Assembly (NCBI GenBank): GCA_002839315.1
Contig: PGXV01000006.1
Location: 249,176-313,175, forward strand
Reading direction: 5' to 3'
Source: Spirochaetae bacterium HGW-Spirochaetae-3
GTDB lineage: Bacteria; Spirochaetota; Spirochaetia; Treponematales; UBA12059
DNA: 64,000 bases
A model generated the notes under the pieces. That model was given only the letters and a program-made list of their open reading frames with translations. It searched no databases and was not told the DNA's origin. The translations under genes and the position numbers were made by a program. Numbering within the stretch: position 1 is the stretch's first letter; the number at the start of each line of letters is the position of its first letter. Below are positions 2,789-26,122 of this stretch, piece after piece.

Positions 2789-4279
2789 ATGGCAAGACTA
2801 AGGATAGCGTTCGCCGGCTGCGGCCGGATATCCGATCTCCACCGGCTGGGCTACGTCGACAACCCGGACGCCGAGCTATACGCCCTCTGCGATCCCGACG
2901 CCGAGACCATCGGACGCCGCGCAGCCGAATGGGGCGTAGGCGTGAGCTACTCCTCGTTCGACGATCTCCTTGCCGATCCTCGGGTCGACGCCGTCGAGAT
3001 CCTGACGCCGCAGCTACTCCACGAGGAGATGGTGGTCAAGGCCCTCGCGGCGGGCAAGCATGTCTCGGTCCAGAAGCCGATGACTACCGACCTGCCTAGC
3101 GCGGATAGGATGATAGCGGCGGCCGGGCGCGCGGGTACGGTATTGAAGGTAGCGGAGAACTACGTCTTCTACCCGCCCCTGGAGCTCGCGAGGAAGCTGA
3201 TAGCCGACGGCGCGATAGGCGACCCTATGACGGTCCGCATAAAGATGATGTCGGGCGGGGCGGGCGGCTGGCCGGTGTCTGACTCGACCTGGGCGTGGCG
3301 GCTCAGGGAGTACGCGTCGGGGCGAGGGATGAACACCTTCGACCACGGCCATCACATGTGGTCGGCCGCCTGGTTCCTGCTCGGCGAATTCGACAAGGTA
3401 AGCGCCTGGATCGACCAGATCAACGGTATCGTCGACTCTCCCGCCGTCGTGCAATGGAAGCATCGCGGAGACAAGCGCTACGGCCAGTGCGAATTCCAGT
3501 ACGGGAAGGAATTCATGGTCCCGTCTTCGTACTACGGCAACGACGAGTGGATAGACGTGTCGGGGTCGAGCGGAGTGCTCGTCGTGAACCGTTGCACGGC
3601 CAGCATCAAGGCCGGACCGGCTGTCGGGGTCTACTCTGGCGGCGAGTGGCGGCACTTCGAGTCCGAGAGCGACTGGGCGGCCGGTTTCGTCGGCTCGACC
3701 CGGAATTTCATCGATTCCATACTCGGGCGCGAGGAACCGATGCTGTCGCCGACTCAGGCGAGGCATATCCTGGCCATGGATCTAGCCGTCGCGAAATCCG
3801 ACAGGGCAGGACGGTCGGTATGGATAGACGAGCTCGACGCCCGCTTCCCCCGCGCCTACGCCGGGCGGCGATCGCGTTCGGAACGGGCGGAGAAGGACGC
3901 GCGCCTCCGCGCGCTCTCCGGCTCCGGACCTTCCGGCTCGGAGGCCCTGGCGGCGCGGTCGGGGGAGCTTACGCGCGCGCTCTCCGGACGCTTCCAGCCG
4001 GCGGCGGCGGCGAATTTCGATGCCTCGATCGGCATCGAACTGGACGAGGGGAGCGGCTTCGCCGAGCGCTACAGCTTGCGCGTCACGCCGGTCGGGGCGG
4101 TCGTCGAGGAGGGTATGCTCCCCGAGGAACCGCTACTCGTGCTGCGGACCAGCAGGTCCGTATGGGCGGCCATCCTCACCGGTAAGACCCATGTAGAGAC
4201 GGCGTACCTACGCGGGAACCTAAGGATCGAAGGCGAAGTCGCCCAATCCTTGCGGATACGGGACATTTTCAAGCTGTGA
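2789..4279 (+). CDS. Gfo/Idh/MocA dehydrogenase fused to an SCP2-like domain
   Basis: A 496-residue protein. I chose ATG 2789 because AGGAGG lies 6 bases upstream and the Rossmann motif follows at once (A-G-C-G-R-I-S, residues 9-15). Residues 1-125 form the NAD(P)-binding domain. The conserved E-K-P motif reads Q-K-P with the lysine at residue 96. Residues about 130-360 form the substrate domain (the G-M-N-T-F-D-H-G-H-H helix holds the usual Asp-x-x-x-His). Family members are about 340-390 residues; this one has about 120 extra. The tail, after an Ala/Ser-rich linker, looks like an SCP2 sterol-carrier fold: F-Q-P near its start, then R-T-S-x-x-V-W-A-A-I-L-T-G-K and the closing G-N-L-R-I-E-G-E plus a short helix ending in I-F-K-L. 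It probably oxidises an inositol-type polyol. The purpose of the SCP2 tail is unknown. Confidence 0.85.
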   Translation: MARLRIAFAGCGRISDLHRLGYVDNPDAELYALCDPDAETIGRRAAEWGVGVSYSSFDDLLADPRVDAVEILTPQLLHEEMVVKALAAGKHVSVQKPMTTDLPSADRMIAAAGRAGTVLKVAENYVFYPPLELARKLIADGAIGDPMTVRIKMMSGGAGGWPVSDSTWAWRLREYASGRGMNTFDHGHHMWSAAWFLLGEFDKVSAWIDQINGIVDSPAVVQWKHRGDKRYGQCEFQYGKEFMVPSSYYGNDEWIDVSGSSGVLVVNRCTASIKAGPAVGVYSGGEWRHFESESDWAAGFVGSTRNFIDSILGREEPMLSPTQARHILAMDLAVAKSDRAGRSVWIDELDARFPRAYAGRRSRSERAEKDARLRALSGSGPSGSEALAARSGELTRALSGRFQPAAAANFDASIGIELDEGSGFAERYSLRVTPVGAVVEEGMLPEEPLLVLRTSRSVWAAILTGKTHVETAYLRGNLRIEGEVAQSLRIRDIFKL

Positions 4280-4311
4280 CGGCGGCAACGGCCGCGACGA
4301 GGAGATTCGCT

Positions 4312-5841
4312 ATGAGTGAACGGGTACGGCAACTGGGTTACTATGTGAACGGCGAGCTTCGGGCGTCCGAGACGACCCGCTATATGGACTGCTTCGATCC
4401 ATCGACCGGCGAGGTGACGGCGCGTACGCCGCAATGCACCCCCGGCGAGGTCGAGTCGGCGATAAAGGCCGCCAAGGCGGCCTTTATCGCGTGGTCCGCG
4501 ACGCCCGCGCCCAAGCGGGCCCAGGTGCTATTTCGCCTGAAGGCCTTGATGGACGCGCACCTCGAGGAGCTGACTCTCCTGACCGCCAAGGAGCACGGTA
4601 AGGTCTGGGACGAAGCCATGGGAGACGTGCTCAAGGCCATCGAGGTCGTCGAATTCGCATGCGGCGCTCCGGAGTTGATGAAGGGCTCGACGCTGATGGA
4701 TTGCACCGTCGGCTACGACACGGCACAGTACATGGAGCCCCTCGGCGTGTTCGCCGGCATAGTGCCGTGGAATTTCCCGGCCATGATCCCTATGGGTTGG
4801 ATGGCGCCTCTGTGCATAGCGACCGGCAACACGATGGTCCTGAAGGCCGCGAGCCATACCCCCCGGACGTCGATGCGTATCATGGAGCTGTGGACCGAGG
4901 CCGGCCTTCCTCCCGGCGTCCTCAATCTGGTCACCTGTTCGCGCGACGAGGCGGAGATACTCCTACGTCACGCCGACATCGCGGGCGTCGCCTTCGTAGG
5001 CTCGACCGGAGTAGGGCGTCATATATACGAGACGGCCGCGCGGTACGGCAAGCGCGTGCAATGCCTGACCGAGGCGAAGAACCACGCCCTGGTGCTCGCC
5101 GACGCGGCCCTCGAGCGCGCGGCGGCCGGTATCGTCAATTCCGCCTGCGGGTGCGCCGGCGAGCGATGCATGGCTCTTCCGGTTATAGTCGCCGAGGAAA
5201 GCATAGCCGACCGGCTCGTCGCCCTGCTCAAGGAGAAGATGGGCTCCCTGAGGATGGGCGCCGCCTACGAGAAGGCCTCGAGGCTGGGGCCGCTCGTTAC
5301 CGCGGAGCATCGCGATCACGTGATCTCGTGGATAGAGAAGGGCGTCGCCGAGGGCGCCGAGCTCGTGCTCGACGGCCGCGGCAAGACCGTCTCCGGGTAC
5401 GAAGGCGGATTCTACCTCGGCGCGACGCTTTTCGACCGGGTCGAACCGGGCATGAGCATTGGCGACAAGGAGATATTCGGCCCGGTAGCCTGCGTTAAGC
5501 GCGTCCGGGACTTCGAGGAAGGTCTCGCCGTCATGAACGCCAACGAGTTCGCCAACGGATCGGTAATCTATACCCAGAGCGGGTACTACGCCCGTGAATT
5601 CTCGCGCCGCACGCACGGCGGCATGGTCGGCATCAATATTGGCATTCCGGTGCCCCTTGGCGTATTCGGCTTCACCGGCCATAAGAACTCCTTCTTCGGC
5701 GACCTCCACGCGATGGGAAAGGACGGCGTCCGTTTCTTCACCGAGCTCAAGAGCGTCACCGCCCATTGGTTTTCGGAATCGGAAGCCGCGGTCGCTACCG
5801 TCGATAACAGTTGGGATGGCATGATCTCGATGCCGAAGTAG
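4312..5841 (+). CDS. iolA: CoA-acylating methylmalonate-semialdehyde dehydrogenase
   Basis: A 509-residue aldehyde dehydrogenase. ATG 4312 is preferred because GAGGAG lies just upstream; an earlier in-frame ATG at 4276 has none. The catalytic cysteine is residue 286 in G-E-R-C-M-A-L, and P-W-N-F-P (about residue 150) and F-V-G-S-T-x-V-G (about 235) form the cofactor site. The A-K-N-H-A segment in place of the usual E-L-G-G-K of hydrolytic enzymes is typical of the MMSDH/IolA branch, which releases a CoA ester rather than an acid. In inositol breakdown this enzyme converts malonate semialdehyde to acetyl-CoA and CO2; in valine breakdown it makes propionyl-CoA. The position behind iolD favours the inositol role. 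It is the last gene of the operon, followed by a hairpin. Confidence 0.9.
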   Translation: MSERVRQLGYYVNGELRASETTRYMDCFDPSTGEVTARTPQCTPGEVESAIKAAKAAFIAWSATPAPKRAQVLFRLKALMDAHLEELTLLTAKEHGKVWDEAMGDVLKAIEVVEFACGAPELMKGSTLMDCTVGYDTAQYMEPLGVFAGIVPWNFPAMIPMGWMAPLCIATGNTMVLKAASHTPRTSMRIMELWTEAGLPPGVLNLVTCSRDEAEILLRHADIAGVAFVGSTGVGRHIYETAARYGKRVQCLTEAKNHALVLADAALERAAAGIVNSACGCAGERCMALPVIVAEESIADRLVALLKEKMGSLRMGAAYEKASRLGPLVTAEHRDHVISWIEKGVAEGAELVLDGRGKTVSGYEGGFYLGATLFDRVEPGMSIGDKEIFGPVACVKRVRDFEEGLAVMNANEFANGSVIYTQSGYYAREFSRRTHGGMVGINIGIPVPLGVFGFTGHKNSFFGDLHAMGKDGVRFFTELKSVTAHWFSESEAAVATVDNSWDGMISMPK

Positions 5842-5871
5842 GCGCTCCAGGACTTCTACTACCGGCGCATC

Positions 5872-5899
5872 GCCCGGCCGTCAGAATCGACGGCCGGGC
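5872..5899 (+). terminator. Hairpin after the inositol-type operon
   Basis: A perfect 11-bp GC-rich stem (5872-5882 with 5889-5899) around a 6-base loop, 30 bp after the dehydrogenase stop. The following AACTTTAAAA is only a weak U-tract, so termination may be partial. Confidence 0.65.
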
Positions 5900-5902
5900 A
5901 AC

Positions 5903-5932
5903 TTTAAAAGCTAGGCCCGATCGTGCTATAGT
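5903..5932 (+). promoter_or_regulatory. parE promoter with -10 hexamer 6 bases from the start codon
   Basis: TTTAAA at 5903-5908, an 18-bp spacer, then an extended -10 (TGC TATAGT, hexamer 5927-5932). The parE ATG is at 5939, so transcription would begin at or next to the start codon. No Shine-Dalgarno precedes this ATG, so the message is probably leaderless. Confidence 0.6.
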
Positions 5933-5938
5933 CCCGGC

Positions 5939-7753
5939 ATGGCATCCAAAGCTACTTCTTCGCAATACGATGAATCAAAGATAAAGACCCTCTCGTCCCT
6001 TGAGCACATACGCCTGCGGACGGGCATGTACATCGGCCGCCTCGGTACGGGCGCCAACCCCGACGACGGTATCTACGTCCTCCTCAAGGAAGTCGTGGAC
6101 AACGCCGTGGACGAGTTCATCATGGGCTGCGGCGACCTGATAACCGTCGCGGTGAAGGACGGCTCGGTATCGATACGAGACCGCGGCCGGGGCATACCCC
6201 TGGGCAAGGTGATAGAGTGCGTGTCGATCATCAACACCGGCGCCAAGTATTCCGACGACGTATTCCAGTTCTCGGTCGGCCTCAACGGCGTCGGCACGAA
6301 GGCCGTCAACGCGCTGTCCTCGCGTTTCCGCGTCGTGTCGTATCGCGACGGCAAGTACACCGAGGCGCTTTTCGAGAGAGGCGTGCTCAAGGACAAGCAC
6401 GAAGGCAAGGCGGGCCGAGAACCTAACGGCCTCCTCGTCGAATTTACGCCGGATAGTGAGATGTTCGGCGACTACTCGTACAACATGGAATTCGTCGAGA
6501 AGCGGATGCGCCACTACGCGTACCTCAATTCCGGCCTGAGGCTCGAGCTGAACGGGCAGGGCTTCGCCAGCGAGAACGGTCTCCTCGACCTGCTCAAGGA
6601 CGAGACGGGCGACGACGTGCTGTACGACGCCGGGTACTGGCGCGGGGACAAGATAGAGTTCTCCTTCACGCACTCCAACAACTACGGCGAGGAGTACTTC
6701 AGCTTCGTCAACGGCCAGTACACGTCGGACGGCGGCACCCACCTGTCGGCCTTCCGCGAGGGATTCCTGAAGGCGGTCAACGAATTCTTCCGGGCCTCCT
6801 ACAAGGGCGAGGACATACGCGAGGGCCTCGCCGCCGCGGTCGCCATAAAGCTCAAGAACCCGATGTTCGAGAGCCAGACCAAGAACAAGCTGGGCAACGG
6901 CGACATCAAGGCCTGGATCATCCAGGAGGCCGTCCGGGGCGTCGACGACTACCTCCGCCGTAACCCGACCGCCGCCAAGCGGCTCGAAGAGAAGATAGCC
7001 ACCAACGAGAAGCTCCGTACCGAGCTCAACGTCGTCAAGAAGGAGGCCCGCGAGGCCGCCAAGAAGATAGAGCTGAAGATCCCCAAGCTCAAGGACTGCA
7101 AGATACACCTCGGCGACGGCCCGGACGGCGAGCGCTCGACCATCTTCCTTACCGAGGGCCAGTCCGCCACCGGCTCCATGGTCAGCTCGCGCGACGTGAT
7201 GAGCCAGGCCATCTTCAGCCTGCGCGGCAAGGTCGAGAACATGCACGCGCGCAAGCGCGTCGCTATCTACAAGAACGAAGAGCTCTATAACCTGATGATG
7301 GCGCTGGGCATAGAGAACGACGTGGAGGGCCTGCGCTACGCGCGCATCGTACTCGCTACCGACGCCGACTACGACGGGTTCCATATCAGGAACCTGCTCC
7401 TGACCTTCTTCCTGACCTTCTTCGAGGAACTCGTCACCCAGGGCCGCGTGTTCATCCTGGAGACGCCTATTTTCCGGGTCCGGACCAAGAAGGAGACGCG
7501 GTACTGCTACAGCGCCAAGGAGCGCGACGAGGCCGTGAAGTCCTTCGGATCGAGCTCCGAGGTGACGCGGTTCAAGGGCCTCGGCGAGATAAGCCCCAAC
7601 GAATTCGGCCAGTTCATAGGCGAGGACATACGCCTCGTGTCGGTAGATATCCAGACGCTCAAGGCGGTGCCCGAGGTGCTCTCCTTCTACATGGGCAAGA
7701 ATACCCCCGAGCGCCGCGACTACATCATGAAGAACCTCAAGAACGACCTGTAG
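5939..7753 (+). CDS. parE: DNA topoisomerase IV subunit B (type IIA ATPase subunit)
   Basis: A 604-residue GHKL ATPase that powers strand passage and pairs with the downstream ParC to unlink daughter chromosomes. N-terminal ATPase motifs: R-T-G-M-Y-I-G near residue 28, V-D-N-A-V-D-E-F (N-box) near 57, D-R-G-R-G-I-P (G1) and a G-L-N-G-V-G-T-K lid. The toprim domain shows T-E-G-Q-S-A (Glu 406) where gyrase and most ParE proteins have E-G-D-S-A, and D-A-D-Y-D-G (Asp 475) where D-A-D-V-D-G is usual. The acidic metal ligands themselves are retained. The length is slightly shorter than E. coli ParE (630). It lies 7 bp before parC in one operon. GyrB is the alternative call, but the short form and the partner support ParE. 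Confidence 0.9.
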   Translation: MASKATSSQYDESKIKTLSSLEHIRLRTGMYIGRLGTGANPDDGIYVLLKEVVDNAVDEFIMGCGDLITVAVKDGSVSIRDRGRGIPLGKVIECVSIINTGAKYSDDVFQFSVGLNGVGTKAVNALSSRFRVVSYRDGKYTEALFERGVLKDKHEGKAGREPNGLLVEFTPDSEMFGDYSYNMEFVEKRMRHYAYLNSGLRLELNGQGFASENGLLDLLKDETGDDVLYDAGYWRGDKIEFSFTHSNNYGEEYFSFVNGQYTSDGGTHLSAFREGFLKAVNEFFRASYKGEDIREGLAAAVAIKLKNPMFESQTKNKLGNGDIKAWIIQEAVRGVDDYLRRNPTAAKRLEEKIATNEKLRTELNVVKKEAREAAKKIELKIPKLKDCKIHLGDGPDGERSTIFLTEGQSATGSMVSSRDVMSQAIFSLRGKVENMHARKRVAIYKNEELYNLMMALGIENDVEGLRYARIVLATDADYDGFHIRNLLLTFFLTFFEELVTQGRVFILETPIFRVRTKKETRYCYSAKERDEAVKSFGSSSEVTRFKGLGEISPNEFGQFIGEDIRLVSVDIQTLKAVPEVLSFYMGKNTPERRDYIMKNLKNDL

Positions 7754-18747: not shown

Positions 18748-19506
18748 ATGCAGCATATCATCCGGGCCGAAGGCCTTATCAAGACATACGGCGGCGTCGC
18801 CGCGCGACGACGCGTGCTGGACGGCGTATCGGTCGACCTGGGCCGCGGGGAATTCATCGCGGTCATGGGCCCCTCGGGCTCGGGCAAGACCACGCTGCTG
18901 TTCGCCCTCAGCGGCATGGACCGCCCGGACGGAGGCAGGATCGAGTTCGACGGACAGGACCTGTCCTCTCTCGGAGAACGCGCCCTGGCCGACCTGCGCC
19001 GCAAGCGCATGGGCTTCGTTTTCCAGCAGCCGTCCATGCTCAAGCACCTCAACATCCTGGACAACGTCATACTGGCAGCCCTGCATGACCGGAGAGGCCA
19101 GGCAGCGAGGCTATCCGCCAAGGCCCGCTCGCTGATGGAGGGCGCCGGCATAGCCGAGCTCGCCGAGCGCGACGTCTCCCAGGTCTCGGGCGGCCAGCTG
19201 CAGCGGGCCGGCATCTGCCGCGCACTCATGAACGATCCGCTCGTCGTCTTCGGAGACGAACCGACCGGCGCCCTGAACAGCTCGGCCGCCGAGGGCGTCC
19301 TCGAGATGCTTCGGAAGATCCACGCGGGGGGGACGGCGATCGCCCTCGTCTCCCACGACGCCCGCGTGGCGGCCAGGGCGGAACGAGTGCTCTTCATGCG
19401 CGACGGGGCGTTCGTCGCCGAGGAACGGCTCGGGACCTTCGCCGGCACGGGCCTGGAGGGCAGGGTAGACGCCGTGACGGCGCATATGCGCGCCCTCGGC
19501 ATCTGA
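18748..19506 (+). CDS. ABC transporter ATPase (LolD/MacB type)
   Basis: A 252-residue nucleotide-binding protein: Walker A G-P-S-G-S-G-K-T-T (about residues 41-49), Q-loop F-Q-Q-P, signature V-S-G-G-Q-L-Q-R (about 148-155), Walker B V-V-F-G-D-E-P-T and the switch histidine in V-S-H-D. This class pairs with FtsX-like permeases, and the permease is directly upstream. All catalytic residues are present, so it should be active. It ends 63 bp before the CPBP protease gene, which may be read through, since no terminator is visible in the gap. Confidence 0.92.
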   Translation: MQHIIRAEGLIKTYGGVAARRRVLDGVSVDLGRGEFIAVMGPSGSGKTTLLFALSGMDRPDGGRIEFDGQDLSSLGERALADLRRKRMGFVFQQPSMLKHLNILDNVILAALHDRRGQAARLSAKARSLMEGAGIAELAERDVSQVSGGQLQRAGICRALMNDPLVVFGDEPTGALNSSAAEGVLEMLRKIHAGGTAIALVSHDARVAARAERVLFMRDGAFVAEERLGTFAGTGLEGRVDAVTAHMRALGI

Positions 19507-19569
19507 TGGCCGGCCGGGGGCCCCTGGCTAGGACCGACGCTTCTACTACAACATAGACGGGGAATAAGA

Positions 19570-20364
19570 ATGAAAACCACTGGGACGATAGGGTACACGC
19601 GGTACATCATATGGGCGTACGCGGCCTTCTGGGCCGTCGTACTGGTATTCGGAGGCGCCGCCGCCATGCTCTTCGAGTCGCCGCCCGCCGTCATGAACGC
19701 CGTCAGCGTCCTGGGTAGCTGGACCCCGACGATCGTGCTTCTGGTGATGCTGAAGAAGTTGCGGCCCGGTTCGTCGGTAGCGGACTTTTACCGGAACGCG
19801 TTCAAGGCGAGGCCGAGCGTGCCGCTCTTCGCGGCGATAGCCGTCATGGCGTTCGGCGCGCTCGCCGCCGCCGCCCTCGTCGCCTCGCTGGTAGAGGGGA
19901 CCCGGCCACTGGCTCCGTTCGTCATGCCTTCCTCCATCGTCGGAGCCCTGGCCCTTACGGCCATGCAGGGACCGAGCGGCGAGGAATCCGGGTGGCGCGG
20001 CTACCTAAGGCCAGAGCTAGAGGGCCGCTTCGGTTTCTTAAAGGGGAACCTGATCCTTGGCCTGGTCTGGGCATTCTGGCACGCTCCGCTCTGGTTCCTG
20101 GCCTCCGGCTTCTCGGGCGCCCGGCTCGTCCTCTTCATCGCCGCCAACGTCGTCGTGCTGAGCTCGTTGACGCTGATCATGGCCGCTCTCATGCGCCGTT
20201 GCGACAATATCCTCGTGGCCTTCTGGGTGCACTTCTTTTTTAACCTCTCGCTCCGCGTCATCGAGGGCGGCGTCGTGTTCTTCGCGGCGCTCTCGGCGGT
20301 CTATGTCGCGCTGGCCATCGCGGTCCTGGCCGTCATGCGCAAGGATTGGGCGCCCGGAGCCTGA
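19570..20364 (+). CDS. CPBP-family intramembrane metalloprotease
   Basis: A 264-residue protein with about eight membrane segments. The Abi/CPBP motifs are complete: E138-E139-S-G-W-R143 (motif 1), F-W-H171-A-P (motif 2) and a histidine at 221 in V-H-F-F-F-N, which together bind a catalytic metal inside the membrane. Relatives include Rce1 prenyl proteases, bacteriocin-immunity proteins and scaffolds. Placed behind a TetR-regulated export ABC system it may process an exported peptide or protect the cell, but no peptide precursor gene is visible nearby. A weak SD (GGGGAATAAG) precedes the ATG. Confidence 0.88.
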   Translation: MKTTGTIGYTRYIIWAYAAFWAVVLVFGGAAAMLFESPPAVMNAVSVLGSWTPTIVLLVMLKKLRPGSSVADFYRNAFKARPSVPLFAAIAVMAFGALAAAALVASLVEGTRPLAPFVMPSSIVGALALTAMQGPSGEESGWRGYLRPELEGRFGFLKGNLILGLVWAFWHAPLWFLASGFSGARLVLFIAANVVVLSSLTLIMAALMRRCDNILVAFWVHFFFNLSLRVIEGGVVFFAALSAVYVALAIAVLAVMRKDWAPGA

Positions 20365-20394
20365 CGAGCGTACGGCTCCGCCCAGAGCCCGCGC

Positions 20395-20711
20395 TTCATG
20401 CGACGGGCGGCGCGCGGGTTCGAAGGCGAGTCCGACGGTCCGGCCCAGGAGCCGCTCCGTCGCGAAGCGGCTCGCCTCCTCGCCGAAACGCTCGACGGGC
20501 TTGCGCGGGTCCACCGTCTCAGGCGTGTCCACGCCTATCAGCCTGACCTTCTCCACGATACCCTCTTCGACAGGGCTACCACGGTTCCGACGTATGACGG
20601 TACTCTATAGATTCCGAGGAGCCGGGCGTCGGCGGCTTACCCGGATGCCGCGCCGCTGACGATCAAGAGCAATGAGGAAATGACCCACGAACCACGTATG
20701 CGCCGTTTCAT
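20395..20711 (-). pseudogene. Secreted thermonuclease (SNase-like), decayed
   Basis: Read on the minus strand from ATG 20711, which has AGGAG one base before it and a TATACT -10-like box overlapping the leader, the first 23 codons make a signal peptide (M-K-R-R-I-R-G then S-S-L-L-L-I-V-S-G-A-A-S). An in-frame TAA follows, and the frame must shift before the SNase core appears at about 20556: V-R-L-I-G-V-D-T-P-E-T-V-D-P, then E-R-F-G-E-E-A-S-R-F-A. The arginine and aspartate of the active site are recognisable in this segment. Homology stops near 20400, just before the CPBP gene ends, so the second half is lost. At least two disabling changes plus a truncation make it a clear relic. Confidence 0.8.
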
Positions 20712-20791
20712 GCTCCTAGTATAACGGGGGCGAGGATATTGGAAGATACCGTAATCCGATACTCATGCAGGTAACTCACGCTGATTCTTTA

Positions 20792-21178
20792 GAGGGCAGT
20801 GCCGTTGAGTTAGGGGGCAATGCCGTTGGGCTAAGGGGCAATGCCGTTGGGCTAAGGGGCAATGCCGTTGCGCTAGGGGGCAGAGCCGTTGGGTTACGGG
20901 GCACTGCTCTGGAGCTCGGGGGCAATCGTCGGAGCGAGGGGGCAATGCTGTTTTGTCAGGGGGCAGAGCCGTTGGGTTAAGGGGCGCTGCTCTGGAGCCC
21001 GGGGGCAATCGTCGGAGCGAGGGGGCAATGCTGTTTTGTCTGGGGGCCGTGCAATTCGGCCGGGGGCAGAGCCGGTTCGTTAGGGGGCAGGGCTGCTGGG
21101 TAAAGGGGCAGTGCCGTTGAGTTAGGGGGCGTGCCCCGTGGGGTGCGGGGCAGGGCTATTTAATCAGGGGGCAATGCG
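20792..21178. repeat. G-rich 21-bp minisatellite, about 19 units
   Basis: Degenerate tandem units of about 21 bp, consensus GGGGGCAATGCCGTTGGGTTA, each beginning with a run of four or five G. Within it an 83-bp block of four units occurs twice in succession (20876-20958 and 20959-21041) with only about four differences, so the array grew by block duplication. Because the unit is a multiple of three, every frame yields a seven-residue peptide repeat (for example G-N-A-V-G-L-R on plus), but there is no SD or family match and I do not call a gene. Unit-to-unit variation is too high and there are no spacers, so it is not a CRISPR. The G-runs could form quadruplexes on the plus strand. The 260 bp after it hold nothing I recognise. 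Confidence 0.9.
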
Positions 21179-21443
21179 AAACAGGTAGAGGGTAACGCTG
21201 CAACGATGAGTTTTAGGCTCGGATAGTCATTGTCAGGCGACGGGCACTCTCTGCCCGCTAACGGGCGCTCGTTTGCCGACACGGCGTCTCTTGATCGATC
21301 GGGTTATCCGAGGGACCATGGTTAATCGTGAGGGTGAGAGCTGACAGGTGAACGTATCGAGTGAAGTATGATGGGGGTGCTGGAGAAATCCGCTTTGTCG
21401 CGTACAGATATCTTTTAATTATCTAGCGGCTATATAAAAATGA

Positions 21444-21786
21444 TCAGAGTTTCCAATGACCTTTTGCTTTTTGGAAAGATAGAAGAAAGTCAGCAATAGT
21501 TCCAGAACACGGGGCTGTTTCGACTTCTTTATCGGTAGCCGGCCTAAGCTCTACAAATTAATGCCATGAAACATCAAGCTTGCTTTGTCCCCATTTCGTT
21601 ACTCCATTAAAAAAGGACTGGAATACCGACTTGCTCAGCAATAAACCACATTCCATCAATACGACATGACCTACTATTTTTAATAATATCACTGTTTGCT
21701 TTCCCTTCAAGAAGCACGAAGTTCCGAGATCTGAAATTGCCGCCATCTCTGTATTGATATTCAAAAGATGAGTATGGGGTAATCAT
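21444..21786 (-). pseudogene. Small protein coupled to the HNH gene, broken
   Basis: The ATG at 21786 overlaps the HNH stop as ATGA. The protein reads M-I-T-P-Y-S-S-F-E-Y-Q-Y-R-D-G-G-N-F, then G-M-W-F-I-A-E-Q-V-G-I-P-V-L-F and a stop. Moving one base in the T-run at about 21607-21612 continues sensibly (N-G-V-T-K-W-G, then D-V-S-W-H), meets a TAA where most likely a glutamate codon stood, and goes on with F-V-E-L-R-P-A-T-D-K-E to a final TGA at 21444. Total about 113 residues. It is AT-rich like its partner. I recognise only a general type of small uncharacterised protein with a Y-R-D-x-G-N-F start. A role as partner or immunity protein of the endonuclease is only a suggestion. Confidence 0.7.
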
Positions 21787-22643
21787 GATTTAGTACGATC
21801 GGGACTTGTCCCCACATCGACGAGATCGAAAATGTAATTGCGGTGATATTTTAAGTATTGCATCGTTGAATCTGGAACCATACGAAGACGGCTCCTTTCA
21901 TTTAGGCCAGTCTTTCTGACGTCATTCATGTCAATTTTAGCTGATATAGTGATTCTTCCATTATCATCAAAGCTGATAAATCCTTTGTCGAAGAGTTTGT
22001 CGTATGTCGGCACTAGTAGAAGTGAATTAAATCCATCGACTCGTTCTCTATTGTTTGATACTCGCCAAGGCTTGATATGTGATGCTGTGAGGATGCATTT
22101 TTCTGTAAAATCGGAGATACAACATGTATGCCAAATTTGGATGCTTTTCTCTCTGAAAAGACCCTGCCCGATTCTGCTTGACACGATTGCCTCTCGCTCT
22201 GTGATCGCGGGAATGTAATCAGGGGTAGCTTCTGTGGCAATATCAATATCAGGTTGAGTGATGTCGAGGAGCTGCAAATTAAATTTTGAAGGCCTGTCTG
22301 AGTATAGCCTGTAATTTCTGAGTACTGCTCTTCCCTTATAGATAAAATTCTGATGGTGAAGTTCGCGATAAAAAACATGGATATCATCGCGTTGCTCTGT
22401 TATACGATCATCGCTGTTATGACCTTTTTCCCCTTCCCAAAAAAGTTGATCATTATCTATTCGATCTTCATATTGTGTAAGCATTTTCTGTTTTTCTTTA
22501 GTAATAAATAGAATTATGATATTTTGGTCTCTCGGAGTAACGACGCCACGACTTATCGCATTGAATGTTTTATAGTTCCATAGATTGGCAAGGAAGGGAC
22601 GATTATATTCGGTCCCAACTATCAAACTATCGAAATGAACCAT
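21783..22643 (-). CDS. HNH endonuclease, probable restriction-type
   Basis: A 286-residue protein on an AT-rich island. GAGGTAGG precedes the ATG. The C-terminal half is an HNH nuclease of the HNH_2 type: C-C-I-S-D-F-T, then I-L-T-A-S-H-I-K-P-W (catalytic His about residue 187), then N-S-L-L-L-V-P-T-Y-D-K-L-F-D-K-G-F-I-S-F-D-D-N-G. The N-terminal 130 residues (with L-F-W-E-G-E-K-G-H-N-S-D-D-R-I and V-F-Y-R-E-L-H) look like the base-recognition modules found in modification-dependent HNH restriction enzymes, but I cannot name the fold with certainty. No methyltransferase is nearby, which fits a modification-dependent enzyme. The base composition is unlike the window, so it was acquired by transfer. 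It is followed by a coupled but broken small gene. Confidence 0.82.
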   Translation of the reverse strand: MVHFDSLIVGTEYNRPFLANLWNYKTFNAISRGVVTPRDQNIIILFITKEKQKMLTQYEDRIDNDQLFWEGEKGHNSDDRITEQRDDIHVFYRELHHQNFIYKGRAVLRNYRLYSDRPSKFNLQLLDITQPDIDIATEATPDYIPAITEREAIVSSRIGQGLFREKSIQIWHTCCISDFTEKCILTASHIKPWRVSNNRERVDGFNSLLLVPTYDKLFDKGFISFDDNGRITISAKIDMNDVRKTGLNERSRLRMVPDSTMQYLKYHRNYIFDLVDVGTSPDRTKS

Positions 22644-22831
22644 AACCTACCTCTAATTCTTTGGCTACTTTAAGCTATTCCAATGTATTAGTTACGTAAA
22701 CATAGAAATTCCGTCTGACTCCGCCTTAGCTTTTATCGAGAATACCTGCCCGCCGCTATCGTAGTGATCGGGCTCGTCTCTAGCCTACACCCGAAACGAG
22801 GAAGCGTCCATGCGGGCTTCGCCGGAGCTGT

Positions 22832-23575
22832 CCGCGTAGCCTATCCCGATCCCCCGGTGAACCAGCGCACGACGCCGACCTTGTTCCTGGCGTCGTCGTA
22901 TATCATGCCGCCGTTCCAGTATTCCAGCGCCGCGACGAGGCTATTGCCGCCATCGTCCTCGACGATGAAGCGTACGCGCTTGCGGAAGTCGAACGAAACG
23001 CGCAGGCGCTTGGCGGGATCGCTCCGGTTGCCGTGCTTGATGCCGTTCTTGATGATCTCCGACGGTTGCTGCTCTAAGGCTGCCCTCCTTGAACGATTCG
23101 GGGCAGTCCGTCAGCACGAGCGCGGCGTACTCCCTGACGCGCTCGAAGTCGCTGGAGAATTCCATCCGCGCGGAGCACCTTTCCAGCATGACGGAGCAGG
23201 ACATAGAGCTGGCCGGTAGGATACGTGAGCGGCTGGAGTCCGCTAACGAGCCTATAGCGGGGGAGGGCAACCGCTTCGAGGCCTGGTCGCGGTCGGCGAA
23301 GGGTGTCGCGGTTTCGCTGGTCGTCTCCCTCGTATGGGGCATGCTGCGGATGTACGATTTCAGCCGCGGGCTGCCGGCGCTGCTCGTGGCGCTCAACGAG
23401 GCCATCGTCATGACGTTCCACCTGGAGAAGTACTTGACGGTGTTCTTCTGTATAGTCGACCCGGAGACGGGCACGCTGCGATCGGCCGTCATATACCGCT
23501 GGCGCCTCGCTCCGCGACGAGCCGCCTCCGCGCTCGACGGTACCGGCGGCGTCCGATAGCGTCCGATAGCGTTCC
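22832..23575. pseudogene. Collapsed second copy of the partner-switch locus
   Basis: This segment is a shortened copy of 32683-34851 in the same orientation. 22840-23163 matches the anti-sigma kinase (minus strand) but lacks its middle. Then, joined at the shared bases CCA, 23164-23575 continues as the PP2C phosphatase (plus strand), with further gaps joined at AAGGGYGTCG and at CGGCCG. The STAS gene, the starts of both flanking genes and the phosphatase metal-binding centre are deleted. Nucleotide identity in the retained parts is high, so the duplication is fairly recent or was homogenised. No functional product is possible. No other gene is visible in 22644-23667. Confidence 0.88.
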
Positions 23576-23667
23576 GGGGAGTTCCGGCCGCGGCTTGGCG
23601 ACCGTCGACGGGGAGGTAGCGCGGATCCCTTGCCGGTATGTTATCATTGAGGAAGGACGGTGACTCG

Positions 23668-25578
23668 ATGGAATCGAAGATAGCTGCGTTCTCCACGACA
23701 AAGGGCATGACCCGACGATGCAGAGAGGTTTTCGTACGGCAAGGATGCCCGGAGATCCCTATATACGAGATGACGATGGATTCGGCTCTCGCCCAGGCGG
23801 AGAAGTGCATACACGACGGGACCCTCGTGCTGATCTGCCGTGGAGGTACGGCGGAGTTCCTCCGAAAGTGCATCGAGGTGCCTATCATCGATATCCGCCA
23901 TAGCTTCCTGAGCGTCTTCCTAAGCGTCAAGGAACTGAGGAAGCAGTATCGGACGATCGCCATCGTCGCGTTCGGATTGGCGTGCGACGCCGTTCGGAAA
24001 TACAACTCCATAATGAACGATGACGTACGGGTGCTCGAAGTTACGTCGTCGGAGGAATTCGAGTCGTCGTTCGAGGACGCGGTCCGGAGCGGCGCCGAGG
24101 TGGTCCTCGGAGGCATCCAGGTGGAGGCGCTCTGCCGTGAACGCGGTTTCCCGTATTTCTCCATGGAGCCCGACGATTCCGAGATCGGTCAGGCTCTGGA
24201 AGAAGCGTTCTATAGCCTTCGCATCGAGGAGGAACGCAACCAGCAGTACAGCCTGATCACGACTATTCTGAACTGCGCGACCGAGGGTATCGTCGGGATA
24301 GACGGTACGGGGACGGTCTTCCATATCAACCAGGTCGCGCGCCGGCTCCTCCATTATACCGAGCGTTGCCGTATCGACGACCTCATGCCCGCGGAGAAGG
24401 TCCTTCGCACGCTGGAGACCGGGGAGGACTACCCGAGCGAGCTCGTAACGGTCCGCGGGAAGGGGCTGGTATGCGGTTGCCGCGCTATCCGCTCCGGCGA
24501 CGCCGTCAGCGGAGCCGTCCTGACGCTACAAGAGGCGAGCGCGATCTCGACCATGGACGGACAGATACGTAAGAAGCTTCTTGGGCGGGGCCACGTGGCC
24601 AAGAAGGAGTTCGTGGACCTGGTCGGTCATTCCACGGCGATACTACAGGCCGTGAAGACGGCCCAGCGCTACGCCCGGTCCGGTAGCTCCTTACTCATCC
24701 TGGGGGAGACGGGCACCGGGAAGGAGGTGTTCGCCCAGAGCATCCATAACTCGAGCTCCCGGAGGAAGGAACCCTTCGTCGCGGTCAATTGCGCCGCGCT
24801 TCCTCCGAATATCCTCGAGAGCGAGCTGTTCGGCTATGTCCATGGTGCCTTCACGGGAGCCCGGACCGAGGGCAAGCCGGGGATTTTCGAGCTCGCCCAT
24901 AAGGGGACGGTCTTCCTCGACGAGATCAGCGAGATGTCGACCGACCTCCAGGTGAAACTGCTCAGGGTGCTGCAGGAGCGTGAGGTGACGCGCATCGGGG
25001 ACGATCGGGTCATACCCGTCGACGTCCGCGTGCTCGCCGCCAGTAACATAGACATACAGGGCGCGATCGCGCAGGGGCGGTTCCGTATGGACCTGTATTA
25101 CCGCATCGGCGTGCTGGAGCTGTACCTGCCGCCGCTACGGGAGCGGAGAGAGGATATCCCCGATCTCGCCGAGAGTTTCATGCGAGGGCACAAGTCTCTC
25201 ACGGCGAGGGCGGAGGAGGCTTTGAAGGCGTATCCCTGGCCGGGGAACATACGGCAGCTCTCCAACGTCATGGAGCGCTTGGACGTGCTGTGCGATCATA
25301 GCGTCATCACGCACGAGGACGTCCTGAAAGTGCTCGACGTCTCTCCCGGAGCGCCAGGTATCCCCGAGCGCCCGGCATCCGCGGATGCCGGCTCGGCGGC
25401 GGATGAGGCTCTGCTTCCTCGTATGGAGGAACGGCTCATACAGGAGGTATTGTCGCAGGTGGGCGGGAATAAGGCGCTCGCCGCGTCGCGCCTCGGGATG
25501 AGCAAGACGACGCTATGGCGCCGACTGAAGGCGATACGCGGCGCGAATGAGCAAGGCGCTGGGTATCAAGCGGACTAG
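23668..25578 (+). CDS. Sigma-54-dependent activator with PrpR-type sensor
   Basis: A 636-residue enhancer-binding protein. ATG 23668 is chosen because GAGGAAGGA lies upstream. Residues 1-170 resemble the PrpR_N sensor (I-C-R-G-G-T-A near 51, then I-D-I-R and a substrate-binding-like fold). Residues about 190-300 are a PAS-like domain (G-I-V-G-I-D-G-T-G-T-V-F-H-I-N). The AAA+ domain has Walker A G-E-T-G-T-G-K-E, the sigma-54 contact loop G-A-F-T-G-A at 393-398, Walker B V-F-L-D-E-I-S-E and the arginine finger region. A Fis-type helix-turn-helix closes the protein (G-G-N-K-A-L-A-A-S-R-L-G-M-S-K-T-T-L-W-R-R-L). It most likely activates the downstream transport/catabolism operon, whose sigma-54 promoter is visible at 26123-26138. 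The ligand is unknown. Confidence 0.92.
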   Translation: MESKIAAFSTTKGMTRRCREVFVRQGCPEIPIYEMTMDSALAQAEKCIHDGTLVLICRGGTAEFLRKCIEVPIIDIRHSFLSVFLSVKELRKQYRTIAIVAFGLACDAVRKYNSIMNDDVRVLEVTSSEEFESSFEDAVRSGAEVVLGGIQVEALCRERGFPYFSMEPDDSEIGQALEEAFYSLRIEEERNQQYSLITTILNCATEGIVGIDGTGTVFHINQVARRLLHYTERCRIDDLMPAEKVLRTLETGEDYPSELVTVRGKGLVCGCRAIRSGDAVSGAVLTLQEASAISTMDGQIRKKLLGRGHVAKKEFVDLVGHSTAILQAVKTAQRYARSGSSLLILGETGTGKEVFAQSIHNSSSRRKEPFVAVNCAALPPNILESELFGYVHGAFTGARTEGKPGIFELAHKGTVFLDEISEMSTDLQVKLLRVLQEREVTRIGDDRVIPVDVRVLAASNIDIQGAIAQGRFRMDLYYRIGVLELYLPPLRERREDIPDLAESFMRGHKSLTARAEEALKAYPWPGNIRQLSNVMERLDVLCDHSVITHEDVLKVLDVSPGAPGIPERPASADAGSAADEALLPRMEERLIQEVLSQVGGNKALAASRLGMSKTTLWRRLKAIRGANEQGAGYQAD

Positions 25579-25632
25579 CGGGTATAATCCGTAGCGCGAT
25601 CATGATTGTTAGGGCCTGTAGGATAACCGTCG

Positions 25633-25669
25633 CCTATGCTCTTCCATGGGAACCTGGATGGAGCATAGG
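25633..25669. other. Hairpin after the sigma-54 activator
   Basis: A 9-bp perfect stem (25633-25641 with 25661-25669) with an interrupted inner part and no T-run. It is 55 bp after the activator stop and could act as a weak terminator. The stretch 25670-25920 holds nothing else I can support. Confidence 0.5.
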
Positions 25670-25928
25670 TCGCGATAGGATGCCATCGAGGATGAACTAA
25701 GATTCTTCACGCTTATACCGCCATCTTCGATCATCGTTTCATCCGTTGCGATACCGTAAATCCCGGCGTGCCGATAGTATCCGCGGCGTCGGCGCCCGTT
25801 AGGCCTCGTACCGATAAAGAACGATTTCCGGTAACGAGTCGATGGCGGTTCATGCGATAGCGGTATTCGCTTGCCGTCGAACCGCGGCCGCATTATGCCT
25901 CCCAGTTATTGCATAAACTTCTATTCAA

Positions 25929-25972
25929 TTTCAATATGAAACTTATCATGAAAACTTGGTTTCAATATGAGA
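25929..25972. promoter_or_regulatory. Upstream activator sites, paired TTTCAATATGA boxes
   Basis: TTTCAATATGAAA (25929-25941, an inverted TTTCA-ATA-TGAAA) and TTTCAATATGAGA (25960-25972) lie 31 bp apart, about three helical turns, in an AT-rich island about 160-200 bp upstream of the sigma-54 promoter. This is the normal place for enhancer sites. They are the best candidates for binding by the activator at 23668-25578. Confidence 0.6.
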
Positions 25973-26122
25973 TAGATATGAAAATATCGTATCATCGATC
26001 GCTCCTTGGTATGGAGCATCGAACGGAAGAGACAGTGTCGAACAGCACGCATTTCCTATATTCGCAACTTACAGCAGGAGGGGTAAGGCAACTCAGCTGC
26101 GCTCCATTCGAATGCATCGGGT

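Follow-up and report, generated by a model that had tools for sequence, protein, structure and literature searches.

An AT-rich island within a 64,000-nucleotide window of the genome of Spirochaetae bacterium HGW-Spirochaetae-3 (the window being the whole stretch of DNA analysed) is likely to be a horizontally acquired restriction module, made up of an intact type IV (modification-dependent) endonuclease gene and a decaying, optional accessory gene. The endonuclease, an HNH protein, probably depends on modified cytosine for cleavage, as judged by sequence comparison. What the enzyme does is decided by its N-terminal domain, which had been missed by the original prediction made from this DNA and is best read as a relative of the SRA-fold recognition domain (DUF3427) of SauUSI. 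Both EVE and SRA sensors have been described in type IV sensor-HNH enzymes, and SauUSI has DUF3427 as its sensor; the predicted DUF3427-HNH combination is a new sensor/nuclease pairing among these enzymes. The accessory gene, hereafter the partner, belongs to a family of about 115 amino acids with a YRD-x-x-N-Y-K motif that has no name in the libraries searched.

An AT-rich island with two coupled genes

The island (positions 21444-22643) has a GC content of 39.5%, compared with 63.0% across the whole window. Values as low as this were found in just 4 of 1,256 sliding segments of 1,200 nt, and the minimum outside the area was 54.9%. The sharp contrast in composition with the flanks that had been predicted was thus borne out, and the view of the island as a foreign-looking, AT-rich insert is supported.

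Two overlapping genes on the minus strand occupy this segment. The HNH gene (21783-22643) starts with ATG and encodes 286 amino acids with no internal stop. The ATG of the partner lies at 21786, and the two genes share four nucleotides (21783-21786), an ATGA that contains the HNH stop and the partner start. The original prediction had described an intact HNH gene, a coupled downstream gene with an ATGA overlap and the breakage of the latter by a homopolymer frame shift and a TAA; all three points were confirmed, and the left coordinate proposed at that time, 21444, turned out to be exactly the last stop of the partner gene.

The host genome assembly measures 3.88 Mb and is 98.28% complete. A comparison within the genus by way of the flanking sigma-54 regulator found no syntenic site that could serve as an empty site, because the matches of this regulator elsewhere are almost confined to its conserved AAA stretch. 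Scanning positions 19000-26000 against Rfam gave no match, and a combined promoter and terminator scan returned six promoter sites, versus 3.5 (s.d. 1.9) in shuffled sequences, and no terminator.

Both sides of the island have features of their own. A G-rich tandem array (20789-21135) sits between a CAAX-protease-like gene and the island, with a 21-nt unit repeated in 16.7 copies at 68% matches and a higher unit of 83 nt. The other side (22850-23560) holds possible gene debris, with HATPase-like sequence on the minus strand (E = 0.0049) and SpoIIE-like sequence on the plus strand (E = 0.0013); neither fragment reaches Pfam's cut-off.

The partner gene carries two lesions

The first open piece of the partner (21607-21786, minus strand) consists of 59 codons followed by a TAA (21607-21609), which touches a run of six A (21609-21614; T6 in the gene sense) at which the frame breaks. 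The remainder (21447-21608, minus strand) lies in the next frame, where an inner TAA (21558-21560) precedes the terminal TGA (21444-21446). This inner TAA is a second lesion, separate from the frame break at the homopolymer.

The pieces were scored with a partner-family profile built from 46 relatives, the window's copy not included. The gene matched the family across its length, with 59.1 bits for the first 59 amino acids and 28.4 bits for the remainder (an X being placed at the inner stop). Within the latter, the 16 amino acids between the lesions scored just 2.2 bits and the 37 past the second stop 13.5 bits, the best of 2,000 shuffles of that piece reaching 7.1. Since the profile scores on both sides of the lesions, the pieces are those of one decayed gene.

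The HNH domain retains a complete active site

Pfam called HNH_2 on the 286-residue protein (32.2 bits, cut-off 21). With E values up to 1 this was the only match, a PLD nuclease and a helicase not being found. We then compared a profile of the window's protein and six relatives (L012-L017) with proteins of solved structure. The HNH half matched VcaM4I (PDB 6yex) with an E value of 5.6e-32, and VcaM4I was the sole solved protein matched by this half. The active site of VcaM4I comprises H224, N241, D250 and D254 (PMC7897488), and all four positions are kept in the window's protein as H189, N206, D215 and D219, within a domain that spans residues 148-278 (21810-22202, minus strand). The same four residues are invariant in the seven sequences of the profile.

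Matches to the HNH protein were detected in 38 of 392 genomes of the phylum, few of them full-length. The full-length relatives are those at the six loci L012-L017, all from the spirochaete phylum and 33-37% identical to the window's protein, together with a second copy in genome G394, a DUF3427-HNH-like sequence matched in two segments within a single frame of 342 amino acids. A candidate assignment of the HNH protein to phosphorothioate-DNA restriction (NCBIfam) was rejected, its 23.6 bits being far under the cut-off of 180.

A predicted DUF3427-type sensor in the N-terminal half

The Pfam DUF3427 model makes no call on the window's protein itself, and the sensor is assigned by way of relatives. 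Three of the four two-domain relatives scanned (L012, L015 and L044 from Sinorhizobium) exceeded the DUF3427 cut-off of 27.7 bits, with scores of 28.5, 34.7 and 31.8 bits, and L017 fell below it (22.2 bits). When the DUF3427-HNH family (window plus L012-L017) was aligned by hhalign to the C-termini of SauUSI-like proteins, the probability was 85% and the E value 6.3e-6, both profiles being shallow (Neff of about 2). The predicted sensor, or target-recognition domain, takes up residues 4-125 approximately (22269-22634, minus strand).

The DUF3427 domain of SauUSI has an SRA fold (PDB 7clg) and a predicted 5-methylcytosine pocket, including an inserting residue, formed by M829, Y831, F841, I842, D858 and W868 (PMC7913695). 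Mapped onto the window's protein through the 7clg alignment, four of these six residues are identical, F841, I842, D858 and W868 corresponding to F46, I47, D60 and W69. The D60 and W69 positions are invariant in all seven sequences (window plus L012-L017), while the F and I positions vary. M829 and Y831 are replaced by R32 and V34; Y831 is the residue proposed to sense the methyl group (PMC7913695), so the modification read by the window's enzyme may differ from that read by SauUSI.

A search of PDB sequences with the sensor alignment did not reach SauUSI, the best E value being 0.41 for a uracil-DNA glycosylase inhibitor. In an AlphaFold model of the HNH protein, residues 1-144, which include the putative SRA/PUA-fold region, have a pLDDT below 50.

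A small family beside differently built restriction genes

The first relative of the partner, in genome G006 from the same family as the host, was found 110 nt downstream of a PLD-helicase-DUF3427 gene (Pfam PLDc_2, ResIII and DUF3427). A scan of 84,980 species genomes confirmed 109 relatives, and a census of gene neighbours was taken on the best 80 of the 109, ranked by likeness to the window's copy. These 80 include near relatives, such as several Gallionella-type genomes and two identical partners, and the counts among them are therefore not independent events. An HNH gene was scored as upstream when it ended within 260 nt of the partner on the same strand, and as downstream when it lay within 1.5 kb.

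By this rule, 43 of the best 80 relatives have an HNH gene no more than 1.5 kb away. In 36 of these the partner comes directly after the HNH gene in the same orientation, and in the other 7 the HNH gene is downstream of the partner. A SauUSI-like gene adjoins the partner in four more (L093, L111, L113 and L115), and in L085, a case missed by the rule, the partner precedes a SauUSI-like gene by 50 nt, making five in all. No HNH or SauUSI-like neighbour was scored in 22 of the 80, each with at least 1.5 kb of sequence on both sides; these 22 include L085, as well as L094, in which SauUSI-like sequence begins to be seen only 1.25 kb upstream, and L130, where tblastn detected a short remnant resembling HNH. 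Less than 1.5 kb was available on one side in the remaining 11. Going by the titles of their records, the restriction-linked relatives span Proteobacteria, Verrucomicrobiota, Bacteroidota, Bacillota and Spirochaetota.

A tree of the partner was built from 68 rows, leaving out 11 loci that were too short as well as L113 and L121 (<75 amino acids). The window's copy falls in a set of 40 rows (SH-aLRT 83), of which 37 are HNH-linked; the other two members are L066 and L093, the latter SauUSI-linked. The row closest to the window's copy is the HNH-linked L055, the window's own branch being long, and about half of the forks of the tree are weakly supported (33 of 64).

Relatives without an HNH gene were found on 10 viral contigs (7 of them distinct), where a SauUSI-like neighbour was absent too, and also on plasmids. 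Phage records searched with the Marinobacter relative as the query yielded no partner, and single-sequence queries of viral contigs gave no match.

Several single loci deserve mention. L066 carries a partner (5917-6348) nearly identical to the copies of L072 and L074, and no HNH gene was found in that locus, which indicates that the small gene can outlast the enzyme. L072, from Rhodanobacter, has two different HNH genes in a row (3744-4709 and 4873-5703), followed by the partner; the first of these, by its N-terminal sequence, is presumably EVE-HNH-like. On an Erythrobacter plasmid (L042, 3697-5339) a partner relative follows a gene annotated as DNA cytosine methyltransferase by 35 nt, and on a Marinobacter plasmid (L006) another lies about 560 nt from a DNA cytosine methyltransferase gene, in opposite orientation. 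In records of Chloroflexi and of Anaerolineales, relatives such as L105, L108, L110 and L116 overlap by 8 nt an upstream gene that is not HNH, DUF6908 in L105. In L133 (1999-3188) the partner and an HNH gene are convergent; Pfam makes no call on the N-terminal half of this HNH protein, which appears SRA-like by eye. Finally, an ORF6N-domain protein that matches PADLOC PDC-S05 precedes the partner relative of L098, from Elusimicrobia (5248-5976).

HNH genes often have the partner beside them but persist without it

The original prediction would have been undone if intact copies of the small gene did not occur beside other HNH genes. In its broad form this objection fails, given the 43 relatives in the census that lie near an HNH gene. 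In its narrow form it applies, as none of the seven DUF3427-HNH loci examined (L012-L017 and Sinorhizobium L044) has a partner beside it. The claim that the small gene is accessory rather than an immunity factor is supported, since HNH genes without a partner are common. The HNH protein of L065, used as the query in 300 genomes of its order, found a like gene in 21 (E values up to 1e-20); the partner was present at 6 of these loci, the seed included, and absent from 15, with flanks of about 1.5 kb examined (shorter in L242 and L243). All three loci with a full-length fused methyltransferase had the partner, compared with 3 of the 18 others, the seed being among the latter. L226, L236, L238 and L242, which have methyltransferase remnants or a separate methyltransferase, were without it.

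Within the spirochaete phylum, 29 HNH loci were checked (L012-L040, out of 44 match rows that include the window's own), and the partner was present at three of them (L031, L034 and L037), none of the DUF3427-HNH layout. A search of viral contigs with the HNH alignment confirmed 101 loci, and none of the 80 kept had a partner in the flanks examined; the sensor alignment alone matched no viral contig. Plasmid HNH loci of Acinetobacter and Pontibacillus likewise showed no partner in the stretch examined. The partner is thus a frequent but optional companion of these nucleases, tied most closely to the methyltransferase-HNH fusions in the L065 sample, and the window shows its loss half-way.

How the host tolerates the enzyme was addressed with PF00145, which covers the C5 class of methyltransferases only. 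The search gave no match in the host's own genome; of 14 control genomes, 10 were positive. In a cell with no C5 methyltransferase, an enzyme that depends on modified cytosine would do no harm and would need no immunity gene. Among 13 genomes with an HNH-partner pair free of a methyltransferase, 7 had no PF00145 match at all (completeness of these genomes unstated). The original prediction had also offered a silent endonuclease as a way out; this assumption is unneeded, as all the active-site positions are present and no C5 methyltransferase is recognisable in the genome.

These data bear on the view that the partner is an immunity protein or brake on the nuclease and that the window's HNH enzyme is tolerated only for being silent or for lacking a target, a view that we consider unlikely. 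It draws on the tight coupling of the partner to the nuclease gene that precedes it: of the 36 cases with an HNH gene directly upstream, 28 have an upstream frame whose end falls somewhere from 16 nt inside the partner to 9 nt ahead of its start, distances that depend on start calls made in this analysis. The retention of the partner at all three loci of the L065 sample with a full-length fused C5 methyltransferase also fits, for an enzyme that reads a mark made by the domain fused to it would have to be held in check. However, the partner is missing at 15 of the 21 HNH loci and at all seven DUF3427-HNH relatives examined, and it is broken in the window. The HNH-free partner of L066 weighs neither way. 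HNH genes persist without an intact partner, as is known from sequence alone, and the host has survived the loss of the partner in the present case; an obligatory immunity role towards this enzyme is thus unlikely, and an optional accessory role would fit better.

It is more improbable still that a type II (modification-blocked) system has lost its methyltransferase and left the HNH gene as its restriction half. Of the 36 partners directly preceded by an HNH gene, 19 do have a C5 methyltransferase upstream; in 16 of these 19 there is one upstream frame of 682-749 amino acids, and two of the 16, L059 and L060, are methyltransferase-HNH fusions according to Pfam. In addition, three PADLOC models match the window's HNH protein, two of which are described as 'type II restriction enzyme'. 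Yet the N-terminal half of the window's protein is of the DUF3427 kind, unlike that of those enzymes, and its nearest solved HNH relative, VcaM4I, is modification-dependent. Moreover, in this host, which has no PF00145 match, an enzyme that is active and kept from cutting solely by a C5 mark would be lethal.

The homopolymer had also been suggested to allow phase variation. We rejected a phase-variable switch: six bases are short for a phase-variable tract, the gene has two lesions, and a change in run length alone would not restore the protein because the second stop lies behind the tract. That the partner is intact in the organism, its frame break being an assembly error or a phase-variable tract, is highly improbable, for although the frame breaks exactly at a six-base homopolymer, the second TAA follows about 50 nt on with homology beyond it, and two further A6 runs in the island are harmless, both lying inside the intact HNH gene.

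Fold and possible function of the partner

The AlphaFold model of the L055 partner (123 amino acids) has a pLDDT of 93.5 and a pTM of 0.87. Fold searches with this model found no relative (Foldseek best E 0.35 in the PDB and 0.086 in BFVD; VIA best Z 2.5), which does not prove a new fold. The partner profile, compared with PDB sequences, gave a best E value of 0.17 for a GFP fusion, taken as chance. The window's partner pieces matched nothing in Pfam, PADLOC or NCBIfam, and two partner relatives had nothing above cut-off in Pfam and PADLOC. Across the 46 relatives, searches of PHROGs, NCBIfam and Pfam yielded isolated single-member matches, each family being hit by 1 of 46. These matches, the best of which were a beta-grasp toxin C domain (E = 3.1e-6), an adenylation domain (E = 2.6e-5) and an RNA ligase PHROG (E = 0.0066), were dismissed as chance or local likeness. 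The partner is unnamed, and a DUF3427-HNH enzyme is not described, in the portion of the open-licence PMC text covered.

Judged by gene neighbourhood alone, the partner would most likely bind its enzyme and modulate it. The 22 relatives scored without an HNH or SauUSI-like neighbour, and the viral-contig copies, which have none either, speak against such contact. Modulation of the reading or handling of the mark, or of the enzyme bound to it, appears more likely than inhibition of one active site, because the common thread among the neighbours is cytosine-5 methylation and not one nuclease. We suggest, tentatively and as something short of probable, that the broken gene is the relic of an accessory factor, widespread but so far unrecognised, that serves restriction linked to cytosine methylation and is shared by unrelated enzyme architectures, and that the copies on viral contigs and plasmids could counter the same enzymes. 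If so, the target of the partner would be something common to all these architectures, either the modified DNA or a shared handling step.

Discussion

We favour the reading of the island as an acquired type IV endonuclease with a decaying accessory gene, and homology together with the pocket residues suggests how such a module would work. The N-terminal SRA-like domain of the SauUSI/DUF3427 type would flip out and read a modified cytosine (5mC or 5hmC), and the C-terminal HNH domain, which may be dimeric as in VcaM4I, would then cut the DNA. The host would be spared since no recognisable enzyme makes C5-methylcytosine. The second gene would have encoded an accessory protein of some 115 amino acids, optional for the enzyme and coupled to it in translation. 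This protein appears to recur beside restriction enzymes linked to cytosine methylation, of no fewer than three builds: HNH, whether or not fused to a C5 methyltransferase; SauUSI-like PLD-helicase-DUF3427; and DUF3427-HNH.

Enzymes that depend on modification curb gene transfer as well as phages whose DNA is modified, and the catalogue of their sensor and nuclease combinations is still being filled. By dropping the motor of SauUSI and swapping its nuclease, the DUF3427-HNH layout could make a new reader of modified cytosine out of a single small protein. More unexpected is that a small, unnamed family with no matched fold trails differently built restriction genes in several phyla; if the partner modulates those enzymes, it would represent an overlooked general control point of restriction. 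The intact pairs in environmental proteobacteria make this role testable at once.

Comparison with known systems

TagI-type enzymes join an SRA-type sensor to an HNH domain. Compared by description only, they resemble the window's protein in this combination, and its sensor, which aligns with the SauUSI/DUF3427 branch, is set apart from theirs on the same descriptive basis. In SauUSI, the C-terminal target-recognition domain is related to the N-terminal domain of the window's protein; SauUSI cuts with a PLD domain and requires an ATP-driven motor, neither of which was found in the window's protein, where an HNH domain is present instead (PDB 7clg, PMC7913695). VcaM4I has the same order of sensor followed by HNH, but its sensor is described as an EVE domain (PDB 6yex, PMC7897488), whereas that of the window's enzyme is DUF3427/SRA-like.

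In vivo restriction of methylated plasmids and phage has been shown for PcaII (PcaRCII), an HNH enzyme that has no methyltransferase gene next to it (PMC8989522), a precedent in favour of the present reading. PcaII would resemble the window's enzyme, as read here, in being a methylation-dependent HNH enzyme without a methyltransferase neighbour, and differs from it in its N-terminus, a TRF1-like helical bundle in place of DUF3427; the text covered makes no mention of a small partner (PMC8989522). With regard to the partner, the counterparts are the C5 methyltransferase-HNH fusions, in which HNH_2 is followed directly by an intact member of the window's partner family; in these enzymes, however, the methyltransferase is fused in, and the N-terminal domain of the HNH part differs from that of the window's protein.
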